Origin: Gammaproteobacteria bacterium
Lineage (GTDB): Bacteria > Pseudomonadota > Gammaproteobacteria > JAADGQ01
Assembly: GCA_015490755.1 (NCBI GenBank)
Contig: WFXF01000088.1
Span: forward strand, 1 to 41,491
Reading direction: 5' to 3'
Length of the DNA: 41,491 nucleotides
The notes beneath the pieces were generated by a model. It ran no database searches, had not been told where the DNA came from, and was given only the letters and a program-made list of their open reading frames with translations. A program made the translations under genes and the position numbers. Positions 2,169 to 36,982 of the stretch are shown in pieces (position 1 is the first letter of the stretch; each line of letters starts with the position of its first letter).

Positions 2169-5012
2169 TTATGCCAGTTCGGTATTATGAAGTAATGTAT
2201 TAATACTCTCTGTAAGCTCGATTTCCTGATACGGCTTTGTCAGGTAAATATCCACTCCGAGGCGTTTGGCATACTCTTTATGTTTGCTGGTTGCTCGCGA
2301 TGTAATCATGATAATAGGCAAATTTTTAGTTGTTTTTCTTGCTCGTAAATGTTCTGTCAGTTCAATGCCGTTCATGCGTGGCATTTCAAGGTCAACCAGC
2401 AATATGTCTGGTTTCTGTTTTTTTATCTCTTCTAGTGCATCAAGTCCATTAATCGCTGTTTGAACCTCAAACCCGATATCATTCATAAAATCGGCTAAAG
2501 CTCTGCGAGCACTTAAGGAGTCATCAACTACTAAAGCTTTAGGTAAATTGGTGCTTCCTGTTGTTTGAAGGTTATTTAGGTACAGAGGTTTGATTTTTTT
2601 ATGTTGGCTAAAATCGAGAAGGTCGGGTAAATCTATAACGGACATAACAGCGCCATCATTGCTGATTGTTACACCGATAATTCCTGGTATTTCAGGAAGG
2701 TATCGGCCCAGGCTTTTTACGACCATCTCACGGCTGTTTTCAAAAGAGGGTGCCAAGATCGCATGAGCTTTACCATTATTTTTTTTGACTAATAAAACGG
2801 GGTGGTTCGATAGATCATTTTCGTCATAGTGTGAGGGGATACCTAATAGCCTATCAATATGCAGTGCAGAATAGTGCACACCCTCGAGATGGTAATTAAG
2901 TTGATTGTCATTTTGAGTGATCAGGCCTGTACCTGCGGGTAATATTCGTTCGATGTTACGATTTGACAGTGCAACACTGATCGTTTTGCTATGAGCAGAT
3001 AAAGCGTGAATAAATAGTTGACTTACGGGTAATATTAGTGTGACGCTTAATCCTTTTCCTTGAGTTGAATTCAGCAGAAGATTACCTTTCATCTCTTTTA
3101 TATTAGAGTAAACAGCATCCATGCCAACTCCTCTGCCTGATACTTGGCTTGTTGTTTCTCGGGTAGAAAACCCCGGCATTAAAATGAGTTGTTCCAGCTC
3201 TGTTTTACTAAGTTTATGGTCATTTGGAATCAGTTTTTTTTGTAATGCTTTTTGGCGAATGGCTTCCAGGTTCAGACCCGCACCATCATCCTCGCAGCGA
3301 ATCTCTATGTGGTTGCCCTTTCGGGAAAAATGGAGTTTGATTTCACCTGTTGGGTTTTTCCCGGCTTTTTGGCGTGCATCAGGTGAGCCGATGCCATGAT
3401 CCACTGCATTGCGCAATAGGTGCATTAATGGGTCTACCAACTTATTTAAAATTTCACTATCAATCAGTGTTTTTTCACCCGAAAACTTTAGTTCGACATC
3501 GTGCTTTGTGAGGCGACACGCTTGACGCACTGCTCGTTCCAATCTAGGAATAATACTATTGGCAGGTATCATTCGGCTTCGAAAAACAACTTCTTGATTC
3601 TCTTTTTGCAAGCGCTCTTGCTTGCTGAAAAGTTGTATAAGCGAATTGATCTTTTGTAATAATTGACTGTTGATCTCAGCGCCATCCATTGTTGCTTCTT
3701 CAAGACGGTTGGTGCAGTAGTGCAGTTCGTTGTAATGCTCTAGTTCCAGTGGGTCAAATTGATTGATTTCCGAATTTAACAGAAGTTGTTCGGGCTGGCC
3801 TGAAGGATTTTTTATAGTGACTAACTGCTCAAGCTCTGTGATTAATTTTTGTACAGTTTGTTCTTTTTGCTTGAGTGTTTTTGCATAAGCCAAAATTTGT
3901 TTGGTGTGCTCCTGGGTTTGGCGGATCAAAGTGATATTTTCACCGGATAGACGTAATAAATCATCAAGAAGCTCAGTTGGAACTCGCGAAAGTCGCGTTG
4001 TATTTTCTGGTTTAGCATGAGATTCAGGTATCGTTGTTTGAACGATGGGGGTCGGTGTTAATGGAGTTGGGGCTTCACCTTCAAGCAGAGCTGTGATGCC
4101 AATTTCATCAATTTTATTGGCAAAATCGAGAACTTCTTGCAGTATCATTTGAGATTCAACAGGTGCATCGCAGCTTTCAGTAATAGCTTCACTCATTGCC
4201 TCCAGACAGTCACCAGCCCGTAATAACATGTCAGCAATAGAGGGGGAAGGGAGTGATTTGTTTTCGGCCAGTGCTTGCAAAATATCTTCAAGGTGGTGAG
4301 TGAGATTAGCAATGCCAATAATGCCTACTGTATTTGCTGCGCCTTTCAGGCTGTGTGCAACTCGCTGTGCTGTATCAACGTCATCAAGTGAGCCTTCACC
4401 TTTGATCAGTTTTTGGATAGCGCAGGAAAAGTCTGCTGTCTGTAACGGCAGCTCCTGAAGCAACGTTTCAAGCAAATCATTATTAACACCATCAGGTAAA
4501 GCAATAGAGATATCATGGGGTGTTGCTTCTGTTTTGCGTGTCGGTTTTTCTGTTTTTTCAGTGGTGACAATGGGGGATGATAGCAGCTCTGATATGGGTT
4601 CGATGTCTTGTTCAATGAGAGGCATCGGCCACTGTTCATCTAGTAGGTGTGAAGCCAAGGCATGGCTCGTGCTATTATTAATTGATTCTAAATAATTCAG
4701 TGAAAGTATTGGCCACCTAGATAAAAAATTCTGGTATTTTTGATCAGATATTTTTTTTTCTTGCTGGAGTATTTGAATATTTTCAATAATTAGCAGACAA
4801 ACTTCCTGGAATCCTGTTAAGCCAATGGTTTCGGCAGCCGTTGCTAGATGTTCGACCGCTTCTATGTAGTGTTGTGTTTGCTTCTCTTCTTTTGAATTCA
4901 GATAAGTTTTTTGTTCCTGAATTAAGCAGTTGATTTCATCAATAAGTAGCTTGATAAAGTTTTGGTCAATCGCTAATGAAGGTGTTTCCTCAGGTGTGAC
5001 CGTATCAATCAT
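2169..5012 (-). CDS. pilL: Pil-Chp type hybrid chemotaxis histidine kinase (PilL/ChpA-like)
   Basis: This 947-residue CheA-like hybrid kinase has a helical N-terminal region without an obvious phospho-His, then an Hpt domain with the phosphorylatable His220 in AHSLKGAANT. A proline-rich linker (about 310-335) follows. The CheA-type ATPase carries HLLRNAVDHG (531-540), DDGAG (575-579) and GRGVGMDAV (627-635). A CheW-like domain covers about 665-805. A C-terminal receiver (about 825-945) has Asp874 as phosphoacceptor. The family controls type IV pilus extension/retraction and surface sensing. It is the last gene of the minus-strand set pilG-pilH-pilJ-pilL, 6 bp after pilJ. One Hpt is far fewer than in Pseudomonas ChpA, so it resembles the shorter PilL forms. 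Confidence 0.88.
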   Translation of the reverse strand: MIDTVTPEETPSLAIDQNFIKLLIDEINCLIQEQKTYLNSKEEKQTQHYIEAVEHLATAAETIGLTGFQEVCLLIIENIQILQQEKKISDQKYQNFLSRWPILSLNYLESINNSTSHALASHLLDEQWPMPLIEQDIEPISELLSSPIVTTEKTEKPTRKTEATPHDISIALPDGVNNDLLETLLQELPLQTADFSCAIQKLIKGEGSLDDVDTAQRVAHSLKGAANTVGIIGIANLTHHLEDILQALAENKSLPSPSIADMLLRAGDCLEAMSEAITESCDAPVESQMILQEVLDFANKIDEIGITALLEGEAPTPLTPTPIVQTTIPESHAKPENTTRLSRVPTELLDDLLRLSGENITLIRQTQEHTKQILAYAKTLKQKEQTVQKLITELEQLVTIKNPSGQPEQLLLNSEINQFDPLELEHYNELHYCTNRLEEATMDGAEINSQLLQKINSLIQLFSKQERLQKENQEVVFRSRMIPANSIIPRLERAVRQACRLTKHDVELKFSGEKTLIDSEILNKLVDPLMHLLRNAVDHGIGSPDARQKAGKNPTGEIKLHFSRKGNHIEIRCEDDGAGLNLEAIRQKALQKKLIPNDHKLSKTELEQLILMPGFSTRETTSQVSGRGVGMDAVYSNIKEMKGNLLLNSTQGKGLSVTLILPVSQLFIHALSAHSKTISVALSNRNIERILPAGTGLITQNDNQLNYHLEGVHYSALHIDRLLGIPSHYDENDLSNHPVLLVKKNNGKAHAILAPSFENSREMVVKSLGRYLPEIPGIIGVTISNDGAVMSVIDLPDLLDFSQHKKIKPLYLNNLQTTGSTNLPKALVVDDSLSARRALADFMNDIGFEVQTAINGLDALEEIKKQKPDILLVDLEMPRMNGIELTEHLRARKTTKNLPIIMITSRATSKHKEYAKRLGVDIYLTKPYQEIELTESINTLLHNTELA

Positions 5013-20224: not shown

Positions 20225-20257
20225 CGCCGAATTGAATACTTGGGGTGTGTAGTTTTA

Positions 20258-20875
20258 ATGTTGAAAGTGACTGGGCTGGAGTGTGTTCGCGGTGATCGCC
20301 AGCTATTTTCATCGCTTGATTTTTCTCTGGAGGCAGGTGAGCTATTGCATGTTCATGGGCATAATGGCAGCGGTAAAACAACATTGTTACGTACACTTTG
20401 CGGCTTACTGATGCCTGAGCAAGGTGAAATTTTTTGGGATGAGAAAAATATATCGGGTCTGGGCGATGAGTTTCGTGGCGAGGTGGTTTATTTTGGCCAT
20501 AATAACGGGATCAAGGGTGACTTAACCGGCGTTGAAAACCTGCATATACTGGCCACGATGGATGGTGTTGATTTTGATGAAAAGCAAGTATGGATTGCGC
20601 TTAAGGATATGGGGTTGGCGGGATATGAAGATTTGCCGACCGGAATGCTCTCTCAGGGACAAAAAAAACGTGTAGCTCTGGCTAGGCTGTTATTGAGCAA
20701 GTCTCTATTATGGATATTGGATGAGCCTTTTACGGCTCTGGATAAAGCGGCTGTTGATCACTTGCAGGGAGTGATCAGTGCACATTTGGGGCGTGGCGGA
20801 TTGGTGGTGTTGACGACACATCAAGATGTTCATCTCACATCCGGGCAAACCCGCCAACTTAAGCTGGGGACATAA
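20258..20875 (+). CDS. ccmA: Heme exporter ATP-binding protein CcmA
   Basis: From ATG 20258 the protein has 205 residues, matching E. coli CcmA. Walker A is GHNGSGKTT (34-42). The ABC signature is LSQGQKKRVALARLLL and Walker B is LLWILDEPFTALD, followed by the switch His in TTHQD. CcmA is the ATPase that, with CcmB, drives release of heme-loaded CcmE from CcmC/CcmD. The frame is open from a TTG at 20240, but the conserved N-terminus (MLKVTGLECVRG) begins at the ATG. It is the first gene of a run of same-strand genes to 30489. Confidence 0.96.
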   Translation: MLKVTGLECVRGDRQLFSSLDFSLEAGELLHVHGHNGSGKTTLLRTLCGLLMPEQGEIFWDEKNISGLGDEFRGEVVYFGHNNGIKGDLTGVENLHILATMDGVDFDEKQVWIALKDMGLAGYEDLPTGMLSQGQKKRVALARLLLSKSLLWILDEPFTALDKAAVDHLQGVISAHLGRGGLVVLTTHQDVHLTSGQTRQLKLGT

Positions 20876-20878
20876 AAA

Positions 20879-21547
20879 ATGTTTACAGCGTTTCAATGCA
20901 TTATTCGGCGTGACCTGTTGTTGGCACTACGTCGCCGTTCAGATATTTTCACAACACTTTTCTTTTTTATCATTGTTGTAAGTCTGTTTCCCTTGGGGAT
21001 TGGACCTGATGCGGATACCTTGCGTCTGATTGCGCCCGGTATTATGTGGGTTGCGGCACTATTAGCTTCTATGCTGGCACTTGAGCGCTTGTTTGCAAAT
21101 GATTATGCGGATGGTTCTCTGGAGCAGATGATGTTGACTCCGCAACCATTATTTTTGTTGGTATTGGGTAAAGTGGTTGCCCATTGGCTGGTGACGGGCT
21201 TGCCTCTGGTCTTGATCGCACCTCTGCTAGGAGTTCAATACGATCTTTCTGTGGAAGGGGTTGAGATCCTTTTGATTACATTGCTTTTAGGAACACCTGT
21301 GCTGAGCTTGATCGGGGCGATTGGGGCAGCATTGACATTGGGTGTGCGCGGTGGGGGTGTGCTGGTTTCATTGCTGGTGTTGCCTCTCTATATTCCTGTG
21401 TTAATCTTCGGCGCAGGTGCAGTTGAGGCGAGTGTTTCCGGTTTGGGTGCGGAGGGGCATATTTACTTATTGGCAGCTATTTTTGTTATGGCACTGTGCT
21501 TTGCTCCTTTGGCAGCAGCAGCAGCTTTACGGCTTTCTATGGAGTAG
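20879..21547 (+). CDS. ccmB: Heme exporter protein CcmB
   Basis: 222 residues, almost wholly hydrophobic with about six membrane helices. The N-terminal FQCIIRRDLLLALRRRSDIFTTLFFFIIVVSLFPLGIGPD is characteristic of CcmB; further family blocks are IAPGIMWVAALLASML, NDYADGSLEQMML and PLYIPVLIFGAG. It forms the membrane part of the CcmAB transporter. It begins 3 bp after the ccmA stop, implying coupled translation. Confidence 0.96.
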   Translation: MFTAFQCIIRRDLLLALRRRSDIFTTLFFFIIVVSLFPLGIGPDADTLRLIAPGIMWVAALLASMLALERLFANDYADGSLEQMMLTPQPLFLLVLGKVVAHWLVTGLPLVLIAPLLGVQYDLSVEGVEILLITLLLGTPVLSLIGAIGAALTLGVRGGGVLVSLLVLPLYIPVLIFGAGAVEASVSGLGAEGHIYLLAAIFVMALCFAPLAAAAALRLSME

Positions 21548-21604
21548 TGATTGCACTTTTTTGCTTTTAGACACTCTAGATATATTATTTTTGGATTTTA
21601 AGAT

Positions 21605-22360
21605 ATGGCTTCAGGTTCAATAAACTGGTTTAAATACTCGGCCCCTTCCAATTTTTATGTGTTGGCTGGACGCATTGTTCCATGGGCGGCGGTACTCGCT
21701 GTTGTATTGGGTGTAATAGGGCTCTACCTTAGTTTTTTTGTCGCGCCCACCGACTTTCGACAAGGTGAAGGCTATCGTATTATGTTTATTCATGTGCCTG
21801 CGGCATGGATGTCCATGTTTATCTATGTGGTGATGGCGTGTTGGGCGGCTGTAGGTCTTGTAATGAATACTCGTGTGTCATTTATGATGGTTACGGCGTT
21901 AGCACCGACGGGAGCCATGTTCACTTTCATTGCGTTGTGGACGGGTGCTCTTTGGGGGAAACCCATGTGGGGTGCCTGGTGGGTGTGGGATGCACGCTTG
22001 ACTTCTGAATTGATCTTGCTGTTTCTTTATATTGGTTTTATGGCATTGCAGTCATCCATCAGCGATTCGCGCCGCGCGGACCGGGCGGGTGCTCTACTGG
22101 TTTTGGTGGGTGTGGTGAATATACCGATTATTTATTACTCCGTTAAGTGGTGGAATACACTGCATCAAGGTGCTTCTATTAGTTTGGATGCTGCGCCAAC
22201 AATGGCCGCTATTATGCTCTGGACATTGATTGTTATGACATTGGCATGTTGGGCCTACACGATTGCAGTGGCATACGCTCGAGCACGTTGTATCGTGCTT
22301 GAACGTGAACGCAATACAACCTGGGTGAAAGAGTTGGTTGGAGATCAAAAACATGGCTGA
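21605..22360 (+). CDS. ccmC: Heme delivery protein CcmC
   Basis: 251 residues with about six membrane helices. The tryptophan-rich WWD-type periplasmic segment GALWGKPMWGAWWVWDARLTSE is present. The external heme-ligand histidines are expected in FIHVPAAWMS and TLHQGAS. CcmC loads heme onto CcmE. It overlaps the ccmD start by 8 bp. Confidence 0.96.
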   Translation: MASGSINWFKYSAPSNFYVLAGRIVPWAAVLAVVLGVIGLYLSFFVAPTDFRQGEGYRIMFIHVPAAWMSMFIYVVMACWAAVGLVMNTRVSFMMVTALAPTGAMFTFIALWTGALWGKPMWGAWWVWDARLTSELILLFLYIGFMALQSSISDSRRADRAGALLVLVGVVNIPIIYYSVKWWNTLHQGASISLDAAPTMAAIMLWTLIVMTLACWAYTIAVAYARARCIVLERERNTTWVKELVGDQKHG

Positions 22361-22520
22361 GTTTTTTGCGATGGGCGGTTATGCCCTTTATGTTTGGGGC
22401 TCTTTTGGTGTATTTGCTCTGTGTGTATTGATTGAAGTGATGGTTGTGCGACAGCGTAAGCGAACTATTTTGCAGAGACTGGGTCGTATGGTTCGTTTGG
22501 AGGCCGAGGATGAAAAATGA
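22353..22520 (+). CDS. ccmD: Heme exporter subunit CcmD
   Basis: 55 residues from ATG 22353: a short N-terminus (MAEFFAMGGYALYVWGSFG), one membrane helix, and a basic tail RQRKRTILQRL. This is the standard CcmD layout; the protein is needed for release of holo-CcmE from CcmABC. The start overlaps the ccmC stop by 8 bp and the stop overlaps the ccmE start (ATGA). A TTG five codons upstream is unlikely to be used. Confidence 0.93.
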   Translation: MAEFFAMGGYALYVWGSFGVFALCVLIEVMVVRQRKRTILQRLGRMVRLEAEDEK

Positions 22521-22963
22521 AAAACAGACATAAGCGATTAATCTTTGTATTGGCAGGTTTGGCAGGTTTAGCGGTGGCGGCCACATTGGTATTTAAGGCA
22601 CTTGACTCGAATCTTTCTTACTTTTTTTCCCCCACCGAAGTGATTGAAGGGGAGGCACCAGTAGATCATGTTTTCCGTATTGGCGGAATTGTTGAAGTGG
22701 GTAGTGTCAAGCAGACCGGTGAAGGTTTAACTGTGCATTTCAGTGTGACGGACAATGCAAATAATGTCGTGATCAGTTATACCGGCATTTTGCCCGACCT
22801 ATTTGAAGAAGGTCAGGGTGTGATTGCACAAGGAAAACTGGGTGCTGACAACGTATTTTATGCAGATGAAGTGCTTGCAAAGCATGATGAAACTTATATG
22901 CCTCCTGAAGTTGCAGATGCGCTGGAAGAAGGTAAAAAGAAAGTGGAGAGTAATGGCTCATGA
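22517..22963 (+). CDS. ccmE: Heme chaperone CcmE
   Basis: 148 residues: an N-terminal membrane anchor (about 9-26), then a periplasmic OB-fold (FRIGGIVEVGSV, VHFSVTD, VVISYTGILPDLFEEGQGVIAQG). His123 in VLAKHDETYMPPE is the covalent heme-binding residue, with Tyr127 as the likely ligand (E. coli His130/Tyr134). It ferries heme from CcmC to CcmF. It overlaps ccmD by 4 bp and ccmF by 4 bp. Confidence 0.97.
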   Translation: MKNRHKRLIFVLAGLAGLAVAATLVFKALDSNLSYFFSPTEVIEGEAPVDHVFRIGGIVEVGSVKQTGEGLTVHFSVTDNANNVVISYTGILPDLFEEGQGVIAQGKLGADNVFYADEVLAKHDETYMPPEVADALEEGKKKVESNGS

Positions 22964-24957
22964 TTCCTGAAATCGGACATTTTGCACTAATATTGGCACT
23001 CTGTATCGCATTGATCCAGGGAACGTTGCCCCTGGTTGGAGCGGCGACAGGTCGAAGGGTCTGGATGAATTTGGCCAGGCCTGCTGTATTAGGGCAGTTT
23101 TTGATGGTGGCAGTTGCATTTGTTTGTTTAACGTATGCTTTTGTCGTTAATGATTTTTCTGTTTTATATACGGCGATGCACTCTAATTCTCAACTGCCTT
23201 TGTTGTATCGTGTTTCAGCTGTTTGGGGTGGGCATGAAGGATCTCTGTTGTTATGGGCTTTTATGCTGGCTGGTTGGGCTTTAGCTGTGAACCTGTTCAG
23301 CCGTAGCTTGCCCGAAGAGATGGTTGCGCGCGTTTTGGGTGTGATGGGTCTTTTGAGTGTTGGTTTTTTGCTGTTTATATTGCTTACATCCAACCCATTT
23401 GAGCGTTTATTGCCAGCCGCGTTGGATGGTCGTGACTTGAATCCACTGTTACAAGATCCGGGGCTGGTCTTTCACCCTCCGATGCTATATATGGGGTATG
23501 TGGGGTTTTCTGTTGCATTTTCCTTTGCGATCGCTTCGCTTCTCGGTGGAAAGCTCGATGCAGCCTGGGCGCGTTGGTCTCGCCCCTGGACAACCATTGC
23601 GTGGGTCTTTCTAACCTTTGGTATTGCTTTGGGCAGTTGGTGGGCTTATTACGAGCTGGGCTGGGGCGGTTGGTGGTTCTGGGATCCTGTTGAAAACTCT
23701 TCATTCATGCCTTGGCTGGTGGGTACTGCATTAATCCATTCGCTGGCCGTTACTGAAAAGCGAGGTTGCTTTAGGAACTGGACCGTTTTGCTGGCAATTC
23801 TTGCATTCTCTCTGAGTCTGTTAGGTGCATTTTTAGTGCGTTCGGGTGTGTTAACTTCTGTGCATGCGTTTGCAACTGATCCAGAGCGAGGTATATTCAT
23901 TTTGGGGTTTCTTGTTACGGTCATTGGGGCTTCACTGGCACTTTATGCCTGGCGTGCGCCTAAAGTTGGCTTGGGAGGAGCCTTTCATTGGTCTTCACGC
24001 GAAACCATGCTGCTAGTGAATAATGTACTCTTGGTTGTTGTTGCTGGAATGGTGCTGTTAGGGACACTCTATCCTCTGCTTCTAGATGCCTTGAACTTAG
24101 GTAAAATATCGGTAGGACCTCCTTACTTTGATGCGGTTTTTGTTCCGTTAATGCTGCCATTAATTTTTTTATGTGGTCTGGGTGCATTGGTACGCTGGAA
24201 GCAGGATGATCTGGTTGCGTTGATGAACCGTTTGCGTTGGGTGTTTATTTTAAGTTTATTGCTCTCAATAGTGATTCCTTTCATGATGGGTCGTTTTTCG
24301 ATCATGGTTACGTTGGGGCTTCTGTCTGCAATCTGGGTGATTTCAGTAACACTTTATGGAATGTGGAAGCGTATCATAGGGATTTCTGGTAATCGTAGCT
24401 TTAGTGATGGTTTACGTTCTCTAACATCATCATATATTGGTATGGTTATCGCACATATAGGTGTTGCAGTGGTTGTGATCGGTATAACCCTGGTTTCAGG
24501 TTATGAAATTGAAAAAGATGTACGCATGGATTTGGAGGATACGCTTACCATGGCTGGCTATGAATTCAAATTTAAGGGTATAGAAACAATAGAAGGCCCC
24601 AATTATAGTGCCAGTCGAGGTTTAATTGAGGTTAGGGAAAATGGTCAGTTGTTGACTGTGTTGCACCCTGAAAAGCGTATTTATAATGTTCAAACCATGC
24701 CCATGACTGAAGCGGCTATTGATTCAGGTGTTTTTAGGGATCTTTATGTTTCTCTGGGGGATTCATTGGGAGGAACGGCCTGGGCTGTGCGCGTTTATTA
24801 TAAGCCTTTTATTGGCTGGTTATGGATGGGCAGCTTCTTAATGGGGGTGGGTGGATTTTTGGCGGTGAGTGATCGTCGATACCGATTGGTGAAACGCAGA
24901 AACAAAAAAAAGGTTGTTGCGCCCAAAGTTGATATGGTTGAAGGGGTGAAAAGTTAA
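22960..24957 (+). CDS. ccmF: Cytochrome c heme lyase subunit CcmF
   Basis: 665 residues with many membrane helices. The WWD domain ELGWGGWWFWDPVENSSFMPWL and flanking histidine segments (VWGGHEGSLLLWAF, HPPMLYMGYVG, HSLAVTEKRG) are intact. The periplasmic C-terminal region (MTEAAIDSGVFRDLYVSLG) and last helix are present. CcmF takes heme from CcmE and attaches it to CXXCH apocytochromes together with CcmH/CcmI. The stop TAA shares a base with the ccmG start ATG. Confidence 0.98.
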   Translation: MIPEIGHFALILALCIALIQGTLPLVGAATGRRVWMNLARPAVLGQFLMVAVAFVCLTYAFVVNDFSVLYTAMHSNSQLPLLYRVSAVWGGHEGSLLLWAFMLAGWALAVNLFSRSLPEEMVARVLGVMGLLSVGFLLFILLTSNPFERLLPAALDGRDLNPLLQDPGLVFHPPMLYMGYVGFSVAFSFAIASLLGGKLDAAWARWSRPWTTIAWVFLTFGIALGSWWAYYELGWGGWWFWDPVENSSFMPWLVGTALIHSLAVTEKRGCFRNWTVLLAILAFSLSLLGAFLVRSGVLTSVHAFATDPERGIFILGFLVTVIGASLALYAWRAPKVGLGGAFHWSSRETMLLVNNVLLVVVAGMVLLGTLYPLLLDALNLGKISVGPPYFDAVFVPLMLPLIFLCGLGALVRWKQDDLVALMNRLRWVFILSLLLSIVIPFMMGRFSIMVTLGLLSAIWVISVTLYGMWKRIIGISGNRSFSDGLRSLTSSYIGMVIAHIGVAVVVIGITLVSGYEIEKDVRMDLEDTLTMAGYEFKFKGIETIEGPNYSASRGLIEVRENGQLLTVLHPEKRIYNVQTMPMTEAAIDSGVFRDLYVSLGDSLGGTAWAVRVYYKPFIGWLWMGSFLMGVGGFLAVSDRRYRLVKRRNKKKVVAPKVDMVEGVKS

Positions 24958-25490
24958 TGAAGTCTTCAATGCGGTATCTACTTCCTCTGGCTCTGTTTTT
25001 AGGTGTTGTTGTTTTTTTATTCAAAGGTTTGTCGTTAAATCCACGTGAAGTTCCTTCTCCGCTTGTGGGTAAGGCCGCTCCCGATTTTGACATACCACAA
25101 CTGCATAATTCTGAGGCACGTTTTTCTAATAAGGAGATGCTCGGTCAGGTATGGCTGTTAAATGTATGGGCATCCTGGTGTGTGGCGTGTCGGCATGAGC
25201 ACCCTGTTCTGGTGGAGCTGGAGAAGCAAAATATTGTACCAATTTATGGCTTGAACTATAAAGATTCTCAGCAAGACGGTATTCGTTGGTTACGCCAGTT
25301 TGGTAACCCTTATGTATTGAGTGGGCAGGATCCTGAAGGAGATGTGGGGTTTGATTATGGTGTCTATGGTGTGCCGGAGACTTATTTGATTGATAAAGAA
25401 GGTATTATTCGCCATAAATTTATTGGGCCAGTCGTACCAGATGACATTGAGCAAATAATTAAGCCTATGGTGCAGGAGCTATCTTTATGA
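24957..25490 (+). CDS. ccmG: Thiol:disulfide oxidoreductase CcmG/DsbE
   Basis: 177 residues: an N-terminal membrane anchor (about 7-25) and a periplasmic thioredoxin fold with active site WCVAC (Cys75/Cys78) in NVWASWCVACRHEH. The cis-Pro segment VYGVPETYLIDKEG and the acidic insertion GLNYKD are typical of CcmG. It keeps apocytochrome cysteines or CcmH reduced before heme ligation. The active-site dipeptide is Val-Ala, a normal family variation. Confidence 0.96.
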   Translation: MKSSMRYLLPLALFLGVVVFLFKGLSLNPREVPSPLVGKAAPDFDIPQLHNSEARFSNKEMLGQVWLLNVWASWCVACRHEHPVLVELEKQNIVPIYGLNYKDSQQDGIRWLRQFGNPYVLSGQDPEGDVGFDYGVYGVPETYLIDKEGIIRHKFIGPVVPDDIEQIIKPMVQELSL

Positions 25491-25975
25491 CAAAGCAGCG
25501 TCTAATAAGTTGTTCGTTCGTGCTCTCTTTTTGTTTTTTGTTGTCCGCTGTCACCTCGGCAAAAGAAGCAACGCCTCTGGTTGATGATCCTGTTCTGGAG
25601 GTGCGTGTTATGGCGCTATCTGAAGAGTTGCGTTGTCTGGTTTGTCAAAATCAGACTGTTGCTGATTCCGACGCTGATTTAGCGGTTGATATGCGTGACG
25701 AAGTACGCAATAAAATGAAAGAGGGTTGGAGTGATGATCAGATTGTTGATTACCTGGTCGATCGTTATGGGAATTTTGTACGTTACAGTCCGCCGCTGAA
25801 TGTGACAACGTTCTTGTTATGGTTTGGGCCGGCGCTGTTATTGGTCTTGGGTGTTGTATTGTTATTTTATAGTTTGCGTAATCGACGCAAGCAAGTCTCA
25901 GTCATAACATCGTTATCCAGGCAAGATCAACAGCGAGCACAAACATTATTGAGTGAAGAAGAAGGTAAAAAATGA
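25487..25975 (+). CDS. ccmH: Cytochrome c maturation protein CcmH (CycL type)
   Basis: 162 residues: a signal peptide ending near SAVTSA, and a three-helix domain with the redox motif LRCLVCQNQTVADSDADLA (Cys50/Cys53), followed by VDYLVDRYGNFVRYSPP. A C-terminal membrane helix covers about 107-128. This is the short CcmH form, with the TPR part encoded separately by ccmI. It handles the apocytochrome thiols for CcmF. It overlaps ccmG and ccmI by 4 bp each. Confidence 0.96.
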   Translation: MTKQRLISCSFVLSFCFLLSAVTSAKEATPLVDDPVLEVRVMALSEELRCLVCQNQTVADSDADLAVDMRDEVRNKMKEGWSDDQIVDYLVDRYGNFVRYSPPLNVTTFLLWFGPALLLVLGVVLLFYSLRNRRKQVSVITSLSRQDQQRAQTLLSEEEGKK

Positions 25976-27243
25976 TGTGGTTATTTGGTTTTATTGTGGC
26001 GCTTTTAATTGTTGCCGCATTGCTGTTCACAGTGCTTCCTTTAATTCGCTCTAACTCCGATAAAGTGAGCCTGGAAAGGCGAGCGCTTAATATTTCTGTC
26101 TATAAAGATCAGATGAGTGAGCTGGAAGCAGACTTGGAGCAGGGTATATTAACTGAGTCAGAAAAGCAGGCAGCACGTGTTGAGCTGGAAGGTCGTTTGT
26201 TAAGTGATGTTGAACAAAATGATGAGGCCGTCGGAGCAATAGAAAATGGTCAGCCTTCGAAAAAAACGGCGATTATTTTAGCGGTGGCCGTCCCTATTGC
26301 AGCTATTTATATGTATCAATTTCTAGGTAACCCTGCCGGAATGGATCCAATGTCGCAGCAAGCAGTCAATGAATCGACTGCTAATGGAGATCATGGTGTT
26401 ACTGCTGATCAAATTGAAGCCATGGTTGCCGGGCTTGCTGAAAAATTAAAAGCGAACCCGGATGATCTGGATGGCTGGGTCATGTTAGCTCGTTCTTATA
26501 GCGCTTTGCAGCGTTATGATCGAGCATCATTTGCGTTTGCACAAGCGACCAGAATTTCACCCACAGATCCTAATCTGTTAGTTGATTATGCAGATGCGCT
26601 TGCAATGGCTAATAACGAAAGCCTTGAAGGTTCACCAATGAGTTTGGTGCAACGTGCTCTGGAAATTAACCCTAATCATCAAAAAGGTTTGTGGTTGATG
26701 GGGACGGGTGAGTTCGATAAGGGAAACTTTCAAAGTGCAGTGCAATATTGGCGTAAACTTGAAAGTTTGATGGCTCCAGGTTCTCAAGGTGCAAACTCTA
26801 TTGCAGCCAGTATTTCTCAGGCAGAGCAGTATATTTCAAAAAATGGTGGGCAGGTTCAAGCAAGTGAAGCAACAGTAGTGCCTGTATCCGTGGAAAGCGT
26901 TTTTGTAGAAGGCTCTGTGGCTCTTTCTCCTGTGTTGAAAAAATCTGTCAGTGAAAATGCAGTGCTGTTTGTTTTTGCAAAGCCAGTCGATGGTTCGCGT
27001 ATGCCGGTTGCTGTTTTTAGAAAACCACTGACTACTGACTTGCCTGTTGATTTTCGATTGGATGATACAATGTCTCTGATGCCATCGGCACGTCTATCTG
27101 ATAACAAGAAAGTGCAAATTATTGCGCGTATATCGCAGAGTGGTGATGCGATCCCTGTTTCGGGTGATCTGGAGGGTAGTAGTGATTCAGTGGTTGTGGG
27201 GAGTAATGATGTCAAGATAGTAATTGACCAGATTGTCCCTTGA
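25972..27243 (+). CDS. ccmI: Cytochrome c maturation chaperone CcmI
   Basis: 423 residues: a membrane helix at the N-terminus (about 1-22), a cytoplasmic loop with ALNISVYKDQMSELEADLEQG and ESEKQAARVELEGRLL, then a second helix (about 101-119). The periplasmic TPR region is about 150-285 (LDGWVMLARSYSALQRYDRASFAFAQATRISP; NPNHQKGLWLMGTGEFDKGNFQSAVQYWRKL). A C-terminal beta-rich domain follows (VLFVFAKPVDGSRMPVAVFRK). It binds apocytochrome C-termini. It is the last canonical ccm gene; the operon continues after 11 bp. Confidence 0.94.
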   Translation: MMWLFGFIVALLIVAALLFTVLPLIRSNSDKVSLERRALNISVYKDQMSELEADLEQGILTESEKQAARVELEGRLLSDVEQNDEAVGAIENGQPSKKTAIILAVAVPIAAIYMYQFLGNPAGMDPMSQQAVNESTANGDHGVTADQIEAMVAGLAEKLKANPDDLDGWVMLARSYSALQRYDRASFAFAQATRISPTDPNLLVDYADALAMANNESLEGSPMSLVQRALEINPNHQKGLWLMGTGEFDKGNFQSAVQYWRKLESLMAPGSQGANSIAASISQAEQYISKNGGQVQASEATVVPVSVESVFVEGSVALSPVLKKSVSENAVLFVFAKPVDGSRMPVAVFRKPLTTDLPVDFRLDDTMSLMPSARLSDNKKVQIIARISQSGDAIPVSGDLEGSSDSVVVGSNDVKIVIDQIVP

Positions 27244-27806: not shown

Positions 27807-28121
27807 ATGAATATAACTTTTTCTCTAGCGGTCATGTTTTGCTTTTTATCTGTTTTGGGTGTCAGTAGTGATGTGTATGCGGCTGATTCGATAAAAGGTG
27901 GAAAAATATATCAACAACACTGTTCTAATTGCCATGGCTCAAGTGGTGTGAGTAATATGTCTGGGGTTGCTGACTTTTCTCGTGGAGAAGGTCTGTTTAA
28001 GTCAGATATTGATTTGTTGAGATTGTTGCAACGAGGGAAAGGAATGATGCCTGCTTATCAGGGACGTCTTTCAGATAAAGAGATGCTGGATGTTATTGCT
28101 TACATGAGAACTTTACGTTAA
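27807..28121 (+). CDS. Small periplasmic monoheme cytochrome c
   Basis: 104 residues: a signal peptide ending near DVYA-ADS (about 25), then a class I cytochrome c core with heme motif CSNCH (39-43) in KIYQQHCSNCHGSSG, the axial methionine in GMMPAYQGRLSDKEM (Met80/Met81), and a C-terminal helix DVIAYMRTL. The gene has its own ribosome site and shares one base (TAATG) with the next gene, so it is made together with the propeller lipoprotein. It is a likely electron carrier; the partner is unknown. Confidence 0.92.
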   Translation: MNITFSLAVMFCFLSVLGVSSDVYAADSIKGGKIYQQHCSNCHGSSGVSNMSGVADFSRGEGLFKSDIDLLRLLQRGKGMMPAYQGRLSDKEMLDVIAYMRTLR

Positions 28122-29281
28122 TGCCATTTAAAATAATATTTTCAAGCTTGCTTGTATTGATACTTGCAAGTTGTAGTTCTTCCGATGATGACCAAATTAA
28201 AGCACCTCTGTCTTCAAATACAGTACTTGAGCCCCCTCCTTTTTCTGTTCAACCAAAAATTGAGAGTGTAAAAACAGAAAATAGTCACGTCGTACTGGAT
28301 ACCTTTGGTGTGGGTGAAAATGTTTATGTGCGTGCTCTGGCTGTTGAGCCATCCAGCAATCATTTGTGGGTTGGTTCATCTGTGGGGGTGTTGGAGATCA
28401 ATTTGGAAAACCAGTCTGTCGTAAAAACATTAACGCGCGATGATGGGCTTGCAAATGAGTATGTTTTTGCAATTGACATCGACAGTCAGGGTTATAAGTG
28501 GTTTGGGACTAATGGTGGTGGAATGTCACGTTACCGAGATGGTGAATGGAAAACTTATTTCCCCATGCATGGTTTGGCTGATTACTGGATTTATGCTTTT
28601 GATGAAATGGCCAATGGTGATTTATGGATAGGCACGTGGGCGGGTGCTAATCTTCTTAAAGCATCAACGGGTGAAATGGAAACCTATGTTAAAGAGTTGG
28701 TGAATGAATGGGTTTATGGAATTGCAATTGATAAGAAGCAGCGAGTCTGGTTTGCGACTGAAGGAGGGATCTCCATGTTTGATGGAGGTCAATGGTCTTC
28801 ATTTACTCATGCGGACGGAGTAGGCGCATCCAATGAATCCAATTTGCCTATCAGTATCAATACGGGTCTTGGAACACGTTCACGTCACAATTTGGATATA
28901 TTATCAGAAGGACGGGCCACATATAATCCTGGTTATGTATTTTGTGTCATGATTGCTGCTGATGAGACTGTCTGGGCCGGCACATGGGGTGGAGGGGTTA
29001 CCTATTATAATGGTAAGAGCTGGAGAAACCTTACCGAAAGCGATGGTTTGGCGGGTAATATTGTATACAGCATGACCCAGGATAAGGACGGAGTGTTCTG
29101 GTTTGGAACAAATAAAGGTTTATCAAATTTTGATGGGCAAGTGTGGCATACTTTTAATCGGCATCATGGGCTGCTAGGGAATAGTGTCTATAGTGTGATT
29201 GCAACACCTGGTGGTGAAATTTGGGCAGGCACCAAGGGTGGTGTGGTACGTATTGGGCAAAGAATGGACGGAAGTAAATGA
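28121..29281 (+). CDS. Lipoprotein seven-bladed beta-propeller (regulator-propeller type)
   Basis: 386 residues with a lipobox at Cys18 (VLILASC). Seven blade motifs can be counted: LWVGSSVG, KWFGTNGGG, LWIGTWAG, VWFATEGG, VWAGTWGGG, FWFGTNKG and IWAGTKGG. This is the two-component-regulator propeller repeat usually found in sensor kinase ectodomains, here alone. A long loop (about 232-270, ADGVGASNESNL to RATYNPGY) breaks the repeat between blades 4 and 5. There is no enzymatic motif. It is coupled by overlap to the cytochrome upstream and to its paralogue downstream (4 bp). A redox-linked ligand-binding or partner-binding role is inference. Confidence 0.82.
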   Translation: MPFKIIFSSLLVLILASCSSSDDDQIKAPLSSNTVLEPPPFSVQPKIESVKTENSHVVLDTFGVGENVYVRALAVEPSSNHLWVGSSVGVLEINLENQSVVKTLTRDDGLANEYVFAIDIDSQGYKWFGTNGGGMSRYRDGEWKTYFPMHGLADYWIYAFDEMANGDLWIGTWAGANLLKASTGEMETYVKELVNEWVYGIAIDKKQRVWFATEGGISMFDGGQWSSFTHADGVGASNESNLPISINTGLGTRSRHNLDILSEGRATYNPGYVFCVMIAADETVWAGTWGGGVTYYNGKSWRNLTESDGLAGNIVYSMTQDKDGVFWFGTNKGLSNFDGQVWHTFNRHHGLLGNSVYSVIATPGGEIWAGTKGGVVRIGQRMDGSK

Positions 29282-30489
29282 ATAGCAAACAAGAAACCAA
29301 AATTTTTATATTCGTTATTTTTGTGACGTTTCTATTGATGATTGGCGCATATTACATCGGTAAAAGTAAAGCTGAGCAGTCTGTTACAGAAGAGTTGCAC
29401 TCAACTGCTCCTCACGATGCTGCTTCAAAAGAGAAACAAACTACACATCATTCAAAAAAGATCCAATTTACTCAATTTGAAGTGGGAAACAGTAACGTTA
29501 AAACCATATTGGTTGATGGTGATCTTGTTTGGATAGGAACTTCTGGTGGGGTCATTCGTTATGATACGAGTAACGATAGTTACAGGATTTTTGATAATAA
29601 AGCGGACGGCCTTTTATCTAACGGTATTTTTTACCTTAATAAAATAGATCATCGTTTATTCGTAGGAACTTATGGCGGTGGTTTATCTGTTTATAATCCA
29701 GTATCGGAGCAATGGAAAAACTATAGTGTACCTCAGGGGTTGGGGGATCAATTTGTCTATGATGTTAAAAAAGTATCCAATGGTGATATATGGATTGCAA
29801 CCTGGTCAGGTGCTAATCGTATTATTAATGCTCGGATGGATGATACAAAGAGTTGGGAAACCTATACAGTAGAAAATACTGATGGTGGTTTGCCAAATTT
29901 GTGGGTGTATGGCATCCAGGAAGGAAAGAGCGGAGAAATATGGTTTGCTACAGAAGATGGTTTGGCTAGATATCAGGAGGGTCAGTGGCAAAACTGGAAG
30001 CATAAAGATGGACTTGGTGCTTCATACGATACTGTGAAAGGGGCAATTCAGTTTACTAATGATCCGGGCAAAGCATCAACACACCATGCTCAACAAAAAG
30101 TTGAACAAGGTTTAGGTGATGTGGAAGTGGCGTACAACCCAAATTACATTATTTCACTTGCGGTTGATTCTGACGGTATTGTCTGGTGTGGTACTTGGGG
30201 TGGCGGTTTGGCACGTTTCGATGGGGAGAGCTGGAAAAACTACACAACCAAAGATGGTTTGCCCGCCAATCATGTATTCATGCTCCATATTGATCAAAAA
30301 AAGCAGTTATGGGTAGGAACCAGTAAAGGTTTGGCTCTGTTTGATAAAAATACAGAAGACTTTTCTGTCTTGACAACAGCGGATGGTTTGTATGCTGATA
30401 ATGTTTTTTCAATGAGTGATGCAGCCGATGGCAGTTTATGGGTTGGCAGTTTTGGTGGTGTTACGCACCTTACTTTACCAGAATACTAA
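29278..30489 (+). CDS. Membrane-anchored seven-bladed beta-propeller, paralogue of the preceding gene
   Basis: 403 residues. An N-terminal helix (about 8-26) anchors it, then a charged linker. Seven blade motifs follow: VWIGTSGG, LFVGTYGGG, IWIATWSG, IWFATEDG, VWCGTWGGG, LWVGTSKG and LWVGSFGG. These match the neighbour blade by blade, including the long loop between blades 4 and 5 (DGLGASYDTVKG to VAYNPNYII). The pair therefore arose by tandem duplication, with one copy lipid-anchored and the other held by a helix. No catalytic residues are recognised. It is the last gene of the ccm-led run; 220 bp without a clear feature follow. Confidence 0.82.
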   Translation: MNSKQETKIFIFVIFVTFLLMIGAYYIGKSKAEQSVTEELHSTAPHDAASKEKQTTHHSKKIQFTQFEVGNSNVKTILVDGDLVWIGTSGGVIRYDTSNDSYRIFDNKADGLLSNGIFYLNKIDHRLFVGTYGGGLSVYNPVSEQWKNYSVPQGLGDQFVYDVKKVSNGDIWIATWSGANRIINARMDDTKSWETYTVENTDGGLPNLWVYGIQEGKSGEIWFATEDGLARYQEGQWQNWKHKDGLGASYDTVKGAIQFTNDPGKASTHHAQQKVEQGLGDVEVAYNPNYIISLAVDSDGIVWCGTWGGGLARFDGESWKNYTTKDGLPANHVFMLHIDQKKQLWVGTSKGLALFDKNTEDFSVLTTADGLYADNVFSMSDAADGSLWVGSFGGVTHLTLPEY

Positions 30490-33193: not shown

Positions 33194-34291
33194 TTATTTA
33201 TTGTCTGTGGATGGAGCTGTTGTCGCGTATCCTTGGTTTTTATTTAGTGTGGCGGGTCTGAAGACATCGACCTTCCTGAAAAATTGGTCTACGACATAAA
33301 TACGCCCATCTTCATCAACATCAATATCAGCAGGTAACATATACTTTCCTGGAGAGCCCGCATGGCTACGTTCTCCAATGAACATGAGTAGTTCACCTTT
33401 GTCGTTGAATATCTGGAAATTGCCAAATGCTGTGTCAACGACGTAAATATTGCCGGTTGCATCGGTTGCGATGCCTTTGGGACGCGCAAACTGTCCTGGC
33501 ATTCTACCTACTGAGCCAAAAGTTTGTAGTGCCTTTCCGTTTGAGTCAAACTGCTGAATTCGAAAGTTGCCGCTGTCAACTACATATATCGAACCATCAG
33601 GAGCCGTTGCTGCCTGCAATGGCAGATTTAACTCACCTTGCCTTGATCCGCGTTTACTGACTGTTTTTATATGTTTTCCCGTCGCGGTATCAAAAATTAC
33701 GATTTGATGGTTTTGGGAGGTGATGCCGCCATTGTCGATGACATAGGTTAGATTGCCCGCGACGGCAACACTGACCGGACGCTGTAACAGTTGGCTGTTG
33801 CCTATGGTGCGCAGGTAATGACCATCACGGTCATAGACCCGGATATGGCGAGCGCTGATATCACAGACAAAAACTTCTCCATATTCAGATGTGTCAATTC
33901 CTATTGGTTTGATAAGTTCTCCAGGCGAATCGGTGCCGATTGTAAAAAAACGTTCGCCCGGAATATCAAATACAAATACTGTGCGTTGAACCGTGTCGGT
34001 AACAAAAACTCGCCCTCGGTGTACTGAAACACCATAAGGTTTGACCAGACCTTTTATTTTGAGAGAAGTGCCTGTTGCAAAAGATTTGAAGCGATCCAGT
34101 GAACTCAATCGTTCAACATCACTACTGTAAATAAGGGTTCGCTCATAAATAAAGCGAGGTTGGTCGGGTGGCGGTGGGAAGACAATGGGTGCAGATACCT
34201 GTGGTTTTTCAGGCGTAGTCGAGCAAGCCGCAAATAGTAATGTGATGCAGCTAAATAGTACCAGAGTATAGAGTTTGTATGGCTGAGTCAT
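33194..34291 (-). CDS. NHL-repeat (six-bladed propeller) lipoprotein
   Basis: 365 residues with a lipobox at Cys23 (LLFAACSTT). Repeats of the NHL type are clear: KPYGVSVHRGRVFVTDT, KPIGIDTSEYGEVFVCDI, LPLQAATAPDGSIYVVDSGNFRIQQFD, RPKGIATDATGNIYVVDTAFGNFQIF and LPADIDVDEDGRIYVVDQFFRKVDVF. It is probably an outer-membrane or periplasmic scaffold. It shares one base with the stop of the upstream five-heme cytochrome (TAATG), so the two products are made together. NHL proteins next to multiheme cytochromes are known from electron-transfer loci. It is convergent with the GGDEF-EAL gene, 3 bp apart. Confidence 0.87.
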   Translation of the reverse strand: MTQPYKLYTLVLFSCITLLFAACSTTPEKPQVSAPIVFPPPPDQPRFIYERTLIYSSDVERLSSLDRFKSFATGTSLKIKGLVKPYGVSVHRGRVFVTDTVQRTVFVFDIPGERFFTIGTDSPGELIKPIGIDTSEYGEVFVCDISARHIRVYDRDGHYLRTIGNSQLLQRPVSVAVAGNLTYVIDNGGITSQNHQIVIFDTATGKHIKTVSKRGSRQGELNLPLQAATAPDGSIYVVDSGNFRIQQFDSNGKALQTFGSVGRMPGQFARPKGIATDATGNIYVVDTAFGNFQIFNDKGELLMFIGERSHAGSPGKYMLPADIDVDEDGRIYVVDQFFRKVDVFRPATLNKNQGYATTAPSTDNK

Positions 34292-35034
34292 TATTTTATA
34301 TGGCAGGTTTCACAAAGCCTATCTGTATCGGCTCGCAGCAACAGGGCAACGTCAGGGTCATGTACGTTATGGCAAGTGGCGCATTCTATCTTTCCATCAT
34401 AGAGCTTTACACCATTATCGAATCCATTTGGACTTTCTGTTGGCCAAAAATCTGGATCTTTATGGTTTAATCCGGCATATTCAATTGATATCGGATGGTC
34501 GTTTGCCAGCTCTGTGCCAATTTGTTTGACAGCAATATTGTGCGCTGCGCGGCCATCATGGCATTTTCCGCAGCTGGTTAAGTCGTTTGATTCATTGATT
34601 GCCATATGTAGCGCTGCATCTTCACTGCTATTCCAGCCATTAGGCTGGAATATCGTCATATCAACCGCCATGGTACCGTCATGGCAAGAGAGACAAAGCA
34701 GGCTGATTGGGCTGGGTGTGCGAACCTTATTGTCAAGCATTAAGCTGTCATAAAGTTCATAGCTGTCTGTTGCCGGGGTTAATCTATTCCATCCGGGAAC
34801 CCCACCTGCTTCTGAAGTATTCTCATCTTTTTTGTCATCGGGAAGGTGGCAATAAATACAGGATGAGCCATAATCAGAAAAAGCAAGTCCCGACATTGCT
34901 TCAACTCCAGCACGCGTATTTAAACCGGTAAAATCATGTTTGGAACCCAGGATTGGATCGCTGTGTACAGGTGAATACCATAAATTGGCAAAAACAGCGA
35001 ATAATAAACACCCCTGAATTAGCCTTTTTTGCAT
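34291..35034 (-). CDS. Periplasmic pentaheme cytochrome c (CXXCH x5)
   Basis: 247 residues: a signal peptide (cleaved near 25, PVHS-DPI) and five CXXCH motifs: CIYCH (59-63), CLSCH (114-118), CGKCH (155-159), CATCH (218-222) and CETCH (241-245). The family resembles doubled-CXXCH / cytochrome c3-like proteins, with histidines (HMAIN, HDGRAAHN, NDHPISIEY, HNVHDPD) available as second ligands. The last motif lies three residues from the C-terminus. It is the upstream partner of the NHL lipoprotein, divergent from the other multiheme gene. The substrate is unknown; electron transfer is inferred. Confidence 0.88.
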   Translation of the reverse strand: MQKRLIQGCLLFAVFANLWYSPVHSDPILGSKHDFTGLNTRAGVEAMSGLAFSDYGSSCIYCHLPDDKKDENTSEAGGVPGWNRLTPATDSYELYDSLMLDNKVRTPSPISLLCLSCHDGTMAVDMTIFQPNGWNSSEDAALHMAINESNDLTSCGKCHDGRAAHNIAVKQIGTELANDHPISIEYAGLNHKDPDFWPTESPNGFDNGVKLYDGKIECATCHNVHDPDVALLLRADTDRLCETCHIK

Positions 35035-35252
35035 GTTATAACCAACCCTATAGCTGATGTGAGATGAAAAAAATAAAAGTCACCCGATATGTTCGAGTGT
35101 TCTCCCTTTTCAGGGTAGCGCAAATCAGGATTTTACGCCACAATGCAGTATTTAATTATACTCAGGGGTGCGCACGGAATAATTTCTACTCTACGCTAGG
35201 GTGTAGAAGTTGATTCGTGTACATCCCTAATTCACATAGGGACTATTTAAAA

Positions 35253-36104
35253 GTGATTTATCGGACTTTTGTGCGGCAAACTTTGAGAATACTTTTTGTC
35301 ATAGGTGCTTTTTACACTTCAGCGATAGTGCATGCAGAGGAAAATTGGTCCGCGGCAGTAAAGAAAGCAGTGGCAACAGCTGTGACGAAAAATGCATCAG
35401 ATTTAGCTCATGGGCAAAAAATTTATGCGGATAACTGTTCCGTGTGTCATGGTGATAAAGGTGTCGGTTCAAAATGGACACTGAATACACTCAATCCATC
35501 ACCTCGTGACTTTACAACTGCATTGGCAGCAACTGAATTGACTCGTGAGAGAATGTTGCAGGCAGTGATAGCAGGGCGAGAAGGAACTGCTATGGTATCT
35601 TATCTGGGTGATCTATCTGTTTCTGATGTTATTGCAGTGGTTGATTTTATTCGTAGTGAATTTATGCAGCCAAAGCAAAATAATGACTTGAATATAACGA
35701 AAGAGCAACCGCATGCCCATCATGGGGCGCAGCAGTTGGTTGATATGCAGCTTCCTTTTGAGGGCAACCTTGTAGGGAATGTTGTTAGTGGACGTGATCT
35801 CTATCTAGGTAATTGCGCTGCATGTCATGGTGTTTATGGTAATGGACAAGGTGGTCGAAAGTCAGCGAGTCAGCCATTACCACGTAACTTTTTATCAGTA
35901 GAGTCGCGTCAGTTATTGAATCGCCCCTCCTTATATAAAGGTATTGCTGAAGGGAAGAGTGGTACGGTAATGCCAGCGTGGGCGCGTGTTTTAAGCGAGC
36001 AGCAAATAACTGATATAGCAGAGTATGTTTTTCAAACATTTATTAATCCTGTTGAAGGTGGGGAGCCTATAGATCAAGTAAAAAAAAAAGTAACGATACA
36101 TTAG
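35253..36104 (+). CDS. Multidomain cytochrome c, 5' reading frame (two heme domains, ends after A10 run)
   Basis: From GTG 35253 (AGGGA at 35238-35242) the protein has a signal peptide (IYRTFVRQTLRILFVIGAF, cleaved near HA-EEN) and two class I cytochrome c domains: CSVCH (62-66) with GTAMVSYLGDLS as Met segment, and CAACH (188-192) with GTVMPAWARVLS. The frame is open upstream to a GTG at 35217, a possible longer start. The frame ends five codons after a run of ten A residues (36080-36089). A third cytochrome domain begins immediately in the -1 frame. Either this is a short dihaem product, or the frame is interrupted by an indel. Confidence 0.8.
   Translation: MIYRTFVRQTLRILFVIGAFYTSAIVHAEENWSAAVKKAVATAVTKNASDLAHGQKIYADNCSVCHGDKGVGSKWTLNTLNPSPRDFTTALAATELTRERMLQAVIAGREGTAMVSYLGDLSVSDVIAVVDFIRSEFMQPKQNNDLNITKEQPHAHHGAQQLVDMQLPFEGNLVGNVVSGRDLYLGNCAACHGVYGNGQGGRKSASQPLPRNFLSVESRQLLNRPSLYKGIAEGKSGTVMPAWARVLSEQQITDIAEYVFQTFINPVEGGEPIDQVKKKVTIH
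36080..36089 (+). other. A10 run at the frame change of the multiheme cytochrome (slippery site or indel)
   Basis: Ten A residues; in the 5' frame they are read as gtA AAA AAA AAA gta. A -1 shift here continues into AGT AAC GAT ACA and the third heme domain. The run includes the A AAA AAA heptamer that supports -1 slippage, and a purine-rich SD-like tract AAGGTGGGGAG (36055-36065) ends 14 nt upstream, similar to the dnaX arrangement. Transcriptional slippage, a genuine single-A deletion or a sequencing error would give the same picture. Confidence 0.6.
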
Positions 36105-36982
36105 ATTTATTAGCACAGGGACGAGAAATTTATAATTTACGTTGCTACTTTTGTCATGGATATAGTGGTGATGCAAAAACATTGGCAACGACTTATTTAA
36201 AGCCGGAACCTAGAGCATTTACGGCAATGCAGCCTGATGAAATGAGTGCGTCGTCAATGTTTGATGTTGTAAAAAATGGCAAGATTGGAACTGCAATGGA
36301 TGGTTTCAGTTATTTGCTGAATGACCAGGAGATTACAGCTGTTGTCAAATTTGTTATGTCAGAGTTTATAGAGAAAAAACAGACCAATACTTACTACCAT
36401 ATTGAAGAAAATGGTTGGGGAGGGCATGAACGTTACGCTGCTGCTTTTCCTTTTGCCCTTGGTGAAATTTCACTCGATACACCTTGGAATCTTTTGACAG
36501 AAGAGCAATCGATCGGGAAGCGGTTATTTATGTCGGCTTGTGTGACATGCCATGATCGGGCGCATGTGGATAAAAAAGAGATTAAGTGGCGGTCTCGCTC
36601 TGTTTCATATCCTCGTGGAAAGTATTCACATAAAGAGGATCCGGTTGATGCTATATCAGGTGCTAGCCCATTTTCTGCACATGATCGTTCTCCCCTGATT
36701 TCAGGTTTGACAAAAAAAGAGTCTCAGGGTCAAAAGCTTTTTATTGAAAATTGTGCTTTTTGTCATGGTGGCGATGGAAAAGGAGCAAACTGGATTGGAA
36801 GCTTTTTAGAATCCCGGCCACGTGACTTGACCAGTGATGGTATTAAATCAGTTTCGGATCTGGTTTTGCTTAATATGATTCGAGGTGGTGTGCCGAATAC
36901 TACGATGCCTGCCTGGAAGTCGGTGTTAACTGATGAACAAATTGAAGCTTTGACTGCTTATATTCGCCGTGCTTTTCATTAA
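36089..36982 (+). CDS. Multidomain cytochrome c, 3' part (three heme motifs, no own start)
   Basis: Read in the -1 frame from 36089 the sequence gives 297 residues: SNDTLDLLAQGREIYNLRCYFCHG opens a third cytochrome domain (CYFCH, 19-23; Met segment GTAMDGFSYLL), then CVTCH (151-155) and CAFCH (222-226, Met segment NTTMPAWKSVL) complete two more heme sites. Domain architecture matches the 5' part, so both encode one protein with five CXXCH motifs. The first in-frame start codons (TTG 36182 and later) would omit the CYFCH motif and any signal peptide, so independent translation is unlikely to yield a useful exported cytochrome. There is no decay in motifs. Confidence 0.78.
   Translation, partial: SNDTLDLLAQGREIYNLRCYFCHGYSGDAKTLATTYLKPEPRAFTAMQPDEMSASSMFDVVKNGKIGTAMDGFSYLLNDQEITAVVKFVMSEFIEKKQTNTYYHIEENGWGGHERYAAAFPFALGEISLDTPWNLLTEEQSIGKRLFMSACVTCHDRAHVDKKEIKWRSRSVSYPRGKYSHKEDPVDAISGASPFSAHDRSPLISGLTKKESQGQKLFIENCAFCHGGDGKGANWIGSFLESRPRDLTSDGIKSVSDLVLLNMIRGGVPNTTMPAWKSVLTDEQIEALTAYIRRAFH

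Follow-up and report, generated by a model that had tools for sequence, protein, structure and literature searches.

A cytochrome gene divided between two reading frames

In a 41,491-nt gammaproteobacterial contig (the window), we found a multihaem c-type cytochrome gene with Cytochrome_CBB3/Cytochrom_C domains that probably undergoes a programmed −1 frame change, most likely by slippage of RNA polymerase on a run of nine or ten adenines (A9/A10). The break between the frames and the run are conserved, the second part carries no export signal, and the codons following the run have the pattern of a translated −1 frame. The break very probably does not reflect damage but lets a single gene give two proteins, one short and one long.

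The source genome is a 2.63-Mb draft in 94 contigs. As originally predicted, two frames on the same strand encode two and three c-type haem motifs, respectively, with the second frame at −1. ORF1 (35217..36104, + strand) encodes an N-terminal module with a signal peptide and two cytochrome c domains (CSVCH and CAACH); its true start may instead be the GTG at 35253 or the GTG at 35271, matching the ATG of a sister species. ORF2, as it would be entered after a slip (36089..36982, + strand), begins with SNDTLDLLAQGREIYNLRCYFCHGY and carries three CXXCH motifs (CYFCH, CVTCH and CAFCH). All five motifs were unbroken and both halves matched Pfam cytochrome c domains above the cut-off (PF13442 with 79 and 102 bits, PF00034 with 70 and 81 bits), in agreement with the earlier view that the gene is not decaying.

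The −1 frame is bounded on its 5' side by a TGA read directly from the sequence (36053..36055, + strand) and is free of stops from 36056 to 36982, while the zero frame terminates as ...DQV-KKK-VTIH* at a TAG (36102..36104, + strand), the stop of the predicted short dihaem product. The frame change must therefore fall between these two stops, where the original prediction had placed a crossover at ten adenines; the run, in the context GT-A10-GTAACG (36080..36089, + strand), was counted as exactly ten A and contains an in-phase A_AAA_AAA. The zero-frame TAG is given as 25 nt past the start of the first A of the run minus phase, and 34 of the 58 homologous loci examined first had a corresponding distance of 18 nt. 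The third haem motif, CYFCH (36143..36157, + strand), is accessible by frameshifting only: as had been claimed, no ATG, GTG or TTG precedes it in the −1 frame, the earliest being a TTG at 36182. In the window, no signal peptide of ORF2 itself was found before CYFCH, nor did the + strand show any internal promoter or any terminator separating ORF1 from ORF2.

Conservation of the break among homologues

Homologues were collected by a search of genome contigs and by searching the whole genomes of relatives, the class and several orders. After near-identical copies were dropped, 142 distinct loci were sorted by a script and every locus was assigned, with signal peptides called by a simple hydrophobicity rule; the loci are related and not independent, and most of the surveyed genomes are draft metagenome-assembled genomes. 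The homologue comparison proposed with the original prediction showed that 77 of the 142 loci share the −1 break of the window, placed at an A run closing ORF1 (hereafter slip loci; 67 with A9, 8 with A10 and 2 with A8), which cover at least 13 GTDB family codes (f1, f22, f23, f37, f53, f65, f72, f76, f77, f81, f101, f125 and f128). In none of the 77 did ORF2 have a start codon plus signal peptide. By contrast, the two parts were separate genes in 48 loci that had no A run, and there both genes possessed a start and a signal peptide; their relative frame was −1 in 26, the same in 13 and +1 in 9, and in some relatives the two genes often overlapped. The remainder comprised two in-frame fusions without an A run, five loci with the heptamer G_GGA_AAG and no A run (a sixth, L194, was read by hand) and ten in which no upstream ORF1 partner was found beside ORF2.

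From the run to CXXCH, the ORF2 frame was open in all 77 slip loci (2544 codons), and stops occurred in the zero frame in all 77 and in the third frame in 75. Three haem motifs were encoded by ORF1 in 52 of 58 slip loci checked and three by ORF2 in all 58; the genus of the window has the pattern of two plus three.

The sister species (L115), whose ORF2 protein is about 80% identical to that of the window, has the junction GG-A10-GTGATAACGCATTAG, with an equal run, an equal −1 relation and a brief KKKVITH* tail, and has diverged immediately 5' of the run. In the segment that separates the run from CYFCH, the differences from the window number 3, 0 and 7 at first, second and third codon positions of the −1 frame, respectively, which is the pattern expected of a −1 frame translated directly after the run.

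In-frame homologues without an A run had been named beforehand as counter-evidence; they were found only as one derived pair (L145 and L181), sister to a poly-A member (L058) in an ORF2 tree whose deep part is weakly supported. This placement suggests that the slip signal can also be lost through true fusion.

Position, composition and length of the run

The 57 slip loci examined for homopolymers contained 63 A9+/T9+ runs in 342 kb, nearly all of which were the slip sites; chance is thus far from explaining where the run lies. The window genome holds only four A10 runs, and the three besides the slip site (L001, L002 and L003) are found at the 3' terminus of an ATPase gene, at the 5' terminus of a lipoprotein-like gene and within an ispE-like frame. 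The runs at the slip sites were pure A even in genes favouring AAG for lysine (L163 has 2 AAA and 18 AAG elsewhere), an excess with a naive log10 P of about −67 when relatedness is ignored. The base 3' of the run was G in 47 and C in 11 of the first 58 loci.

The run was 9 or 10 nt long in 75 of the 77 slip loci, and its codon phase differed among lineages; where the run was ten and not nine, the phase had changed so that the relation remained −1. As the codon phase varies while the −1 relation stays, selection seems to act on the length of the run and not on its codons. Two further runs were observed: a second A8 about 66 nt past the A9 of L173, between the slip site and CXXCH, and in the window a T9 on the + strand (4751-4759), which is an A9 in the coding sequence of a CheA-like gene (2169-5012, − strand).

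Polymerase slippage and ribosomal frameshifting

We propose that faithful transcripts would yield a short exported cytochrome ending soon after KKK, dihaem in the window and trihaem in most relatives, and that transcripts that gain one A or lose two would join the frames into a long exported cytochrome, pentahaem in the window and hexahaem in most relatives. One junction peptide predicted for the long form is KKK followed by SNDTLDLLAQGR. The idea in the original prediction that a slip gives a short and a long cytochrome from a single gene is thus supported as a reading of the locus. We infer that slippage occurs, that it is mainly transcriptional in origin and that the cell makes both products in a tuned ratio. 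C-type cytochromes need export, as haem is attached in the periplasm. Because the sole export signal lies on ORF1, the haem domains of ORF2 appear to have no way into the periplasm other than slippage.

Two features expected of transcriptional slippage were found, namely a homopolymer of about nine or more A/T at the junction and the conservation of junction and run by selection. A pure run of 9–10 A is a hallmark of transcriptional slippage (PMC1088944, PMC3711429), and in a large share of bacterial genomes signs of selection against slippage emerge once runs reach nine A (PMC1088944).

The main alternative, which we consider unlikely although much the strongest of the rivals, is programmed −1 ribosomal frameshifting on A_AAA_AAA, in which a tandem tRNA-Lys slip on a faithful mRNA yields the long product. 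This heptamer sits in phase both in the window and at phase-0 sites, so a ribosomal share in the frame change is possible. Seven A would be enough for such a slip, yet nearly all of the sites have nine or ten, and the better heptamer A_AAA_AAG was not used at any of the poly-A sites. The original prediction had specified a dnaX-type ribosomal slip stimulated by a Shine-Dalgarno (SD)-like sequence, AAGGTGGGGAG, 14 nt upstream of the run. That sequence is indeed present in the window, but a stimulator role was not supported: the segment is missing in the sister species, and SD-like matches were not enriched at homologous sites (22 of 58 versus 41% of control positions), and a conserved SD stimulator was dropped as a candidate. 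A conserved downstream RNA structure at the poly-A sites was likewise rejected, with a mean z of −0.83 versus −0.27 for controls, 9 of 58 sites below −2 and a z of 0.07 at the window site. With neither an A_AAA_AAG site nor a conserved SD or downstream structure, the dnaX-type mechanism was not upheld. Given that the run is pure A and that no conserved SD sequence or stem-loop accompanies it, RNA polymerase slippage fits the data better.

A putative ribosomal site in one genus

A further point for the ribosome comes from one genus (g73, family f72) with nine loci. Eight of the nine carry G_GGA_AAG in the same linker, compared with 0 of 100 other −1 loci. The heptamer was in phase in the seven loci checked, its frame relative to CXXCH was identical in all eight, and most had an SD-like GGAG 14 nt ahead of it; a stem-loop after it gave no consistent signal in the loci of this genus (z between −2.7 and +1.0). 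G_GGA_AAG is the −1 frameshift heptamer of phage lambda gpG-T; it matches these homologues, is not in the window and replaces the A run in relatives. It has also been described as highly shift-prone in E. coli (PMC5009743).

Six loci of the genus have G_GGA_AAG only (L146, L191, L194, L200, L201 and L202), two have A8/A9 plus G_GGA_AAG (L192 and L193) and one has A9 only (L196). In the ORF2 tree the genus forms one clade with a support of 100, and the next larger clade otherwise contains poly-A loci only. The simplest reading of this distribution is that the ribosomal site was gained and the A run was then lost. That a purely ribosomal signal serves a genus nested in a poly-A clade counts against transcriptional slippage, and indicates that ribosomal slippage is capable of the job.

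Other explanations for the break

Among programmed slippage, phase variation and an indel, the three options offered at the outset, the homologues strongly favoured the first and spoke against the others and against a sequencing error. Phase variation, in which replication slippage toggles the long form, would suit a homopolymer within an envelope-protein gene. In none of the 77 slip loci does the length of the run bring the frames into register, and A10 in place of A9 comes with a changed phase that is still −1, which makes this explanation very improbable.

Re-initiation, by which ORF2 would be made as a separate protein, has a precedent in the relatives with two separate and often overlapping genes. 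Export is needed for haem attachment and those relatives all retain a signal peptide, whereas ORF2 of the slip loci lacks a start with signal peptide and the window has no start codon ahead of CYFCH; we regard re-initiation as hardly probable either. An error in sequencing or assembly, or an indel that disabled the gene recently, is the least probable of all and is refuted as a general explanation, since, error-prone as homopolymers are in a 94-contig draft, the identical break recurs at the identical position in 77 distinct loci, drawn from diverse assemblies, and is followed by a translated-frame codon pattern, although a miscount in the window assembly alone is possible.

Genomic neighbourhood and putative function

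The gene is flanked by a divergent multihaem cytochrome gene with paired CXXCH motifs (34291..35034, − strand), a neighbour in all 25 slip loci with long flanks, and by a divergent gene for an NHL beta-propeller protein (33194..34291, − strand); among loci with long flanks, the propeller gene accompanies 24 of 25 slip loci and 45 of 46 others. Both the short (di- or trihaem) and the long (penta- or hexahaem) cytochromes from the one gene would be exported, and electron transfer in the periplasm or at the outer surface is a plausible role. Elsewhere in the window, a ccm-like cytochrome c maturation cluster, recognised from ORF translations only, lies 8 kb upstream (20240-27243), and two adjacent regulator-propeller repeat proteins are encoded at 28121-30489; L139 has relatives of both right before its ORF2 homologue.

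Relation to known systems and significance

In Thermus thermophilus dnaX, transcriptional slippage on A9 gives a short and a long product from one gene (PMC1088944). The cytochrome gene resembles it in the A9-type run and the predicted pair of products, but the full-length form of dnaX is the zero-frame product, while the long cytochrome would need the slip, and the protein families are unrelated. In chlD-type magnesium chelatase, the small and medium subunits come out of one gene (PMC9227772), and in E. coli the frameshifting on its A11, A9 and A7 cassettes amounted to 63, 40 and 10%, respectively (PMC3711429). The two systems share overlapping ORFs in a −1 relation, a poly-A run and the existence of fused homologues; the chelatase is no exported cytochrome, and its frameshift site is described as A_AAA_AAR (PMC5009743) as against the pure A9/A10 here. 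Slippage on A11 in Citrobacter rodentium tssM1 was demonstrated to be transcriptional, with both forms and their ratio being important (PMC4256274); there too an A run precedes an early stop and slippage restores a C-terminal domain, but that case was reported for two genera (PMC4256274), whereas the cytochrome run is conserved over many families.

No cytochrome with this signal was found in the literature searched, where an unnamed listing among the 134 further GeneTack clusters (PMC3711429) is possible. On balance, we lean towards regarding these genes as an undescribed, widespread gammaproteobacterial family of multihaem cytochromes in which slippage is the sole periplasm route for half of the haem domains, and in which one lineage swapped RNA polymerase (poly-A) for the ribosome (G_GGA_AAG) via intermediates with both signals. 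To our knowledge, conserved programmed slippage is rare in ordinary cellular genes beyond mobile elements, prfB, dnaX and the chelatases. Standard annotation would be expected to call such a locus two genes or a pseudogene, missing a haem domain. In at least 13 GTDB family codes, the slip would decide between a cytochrome with two to three haems and one with five to six, and the genus in which G_GGA_AAG has replaced the A run, with two genomes retaining both, would provide a natural experiment on how one recoding mechanism becomes another.
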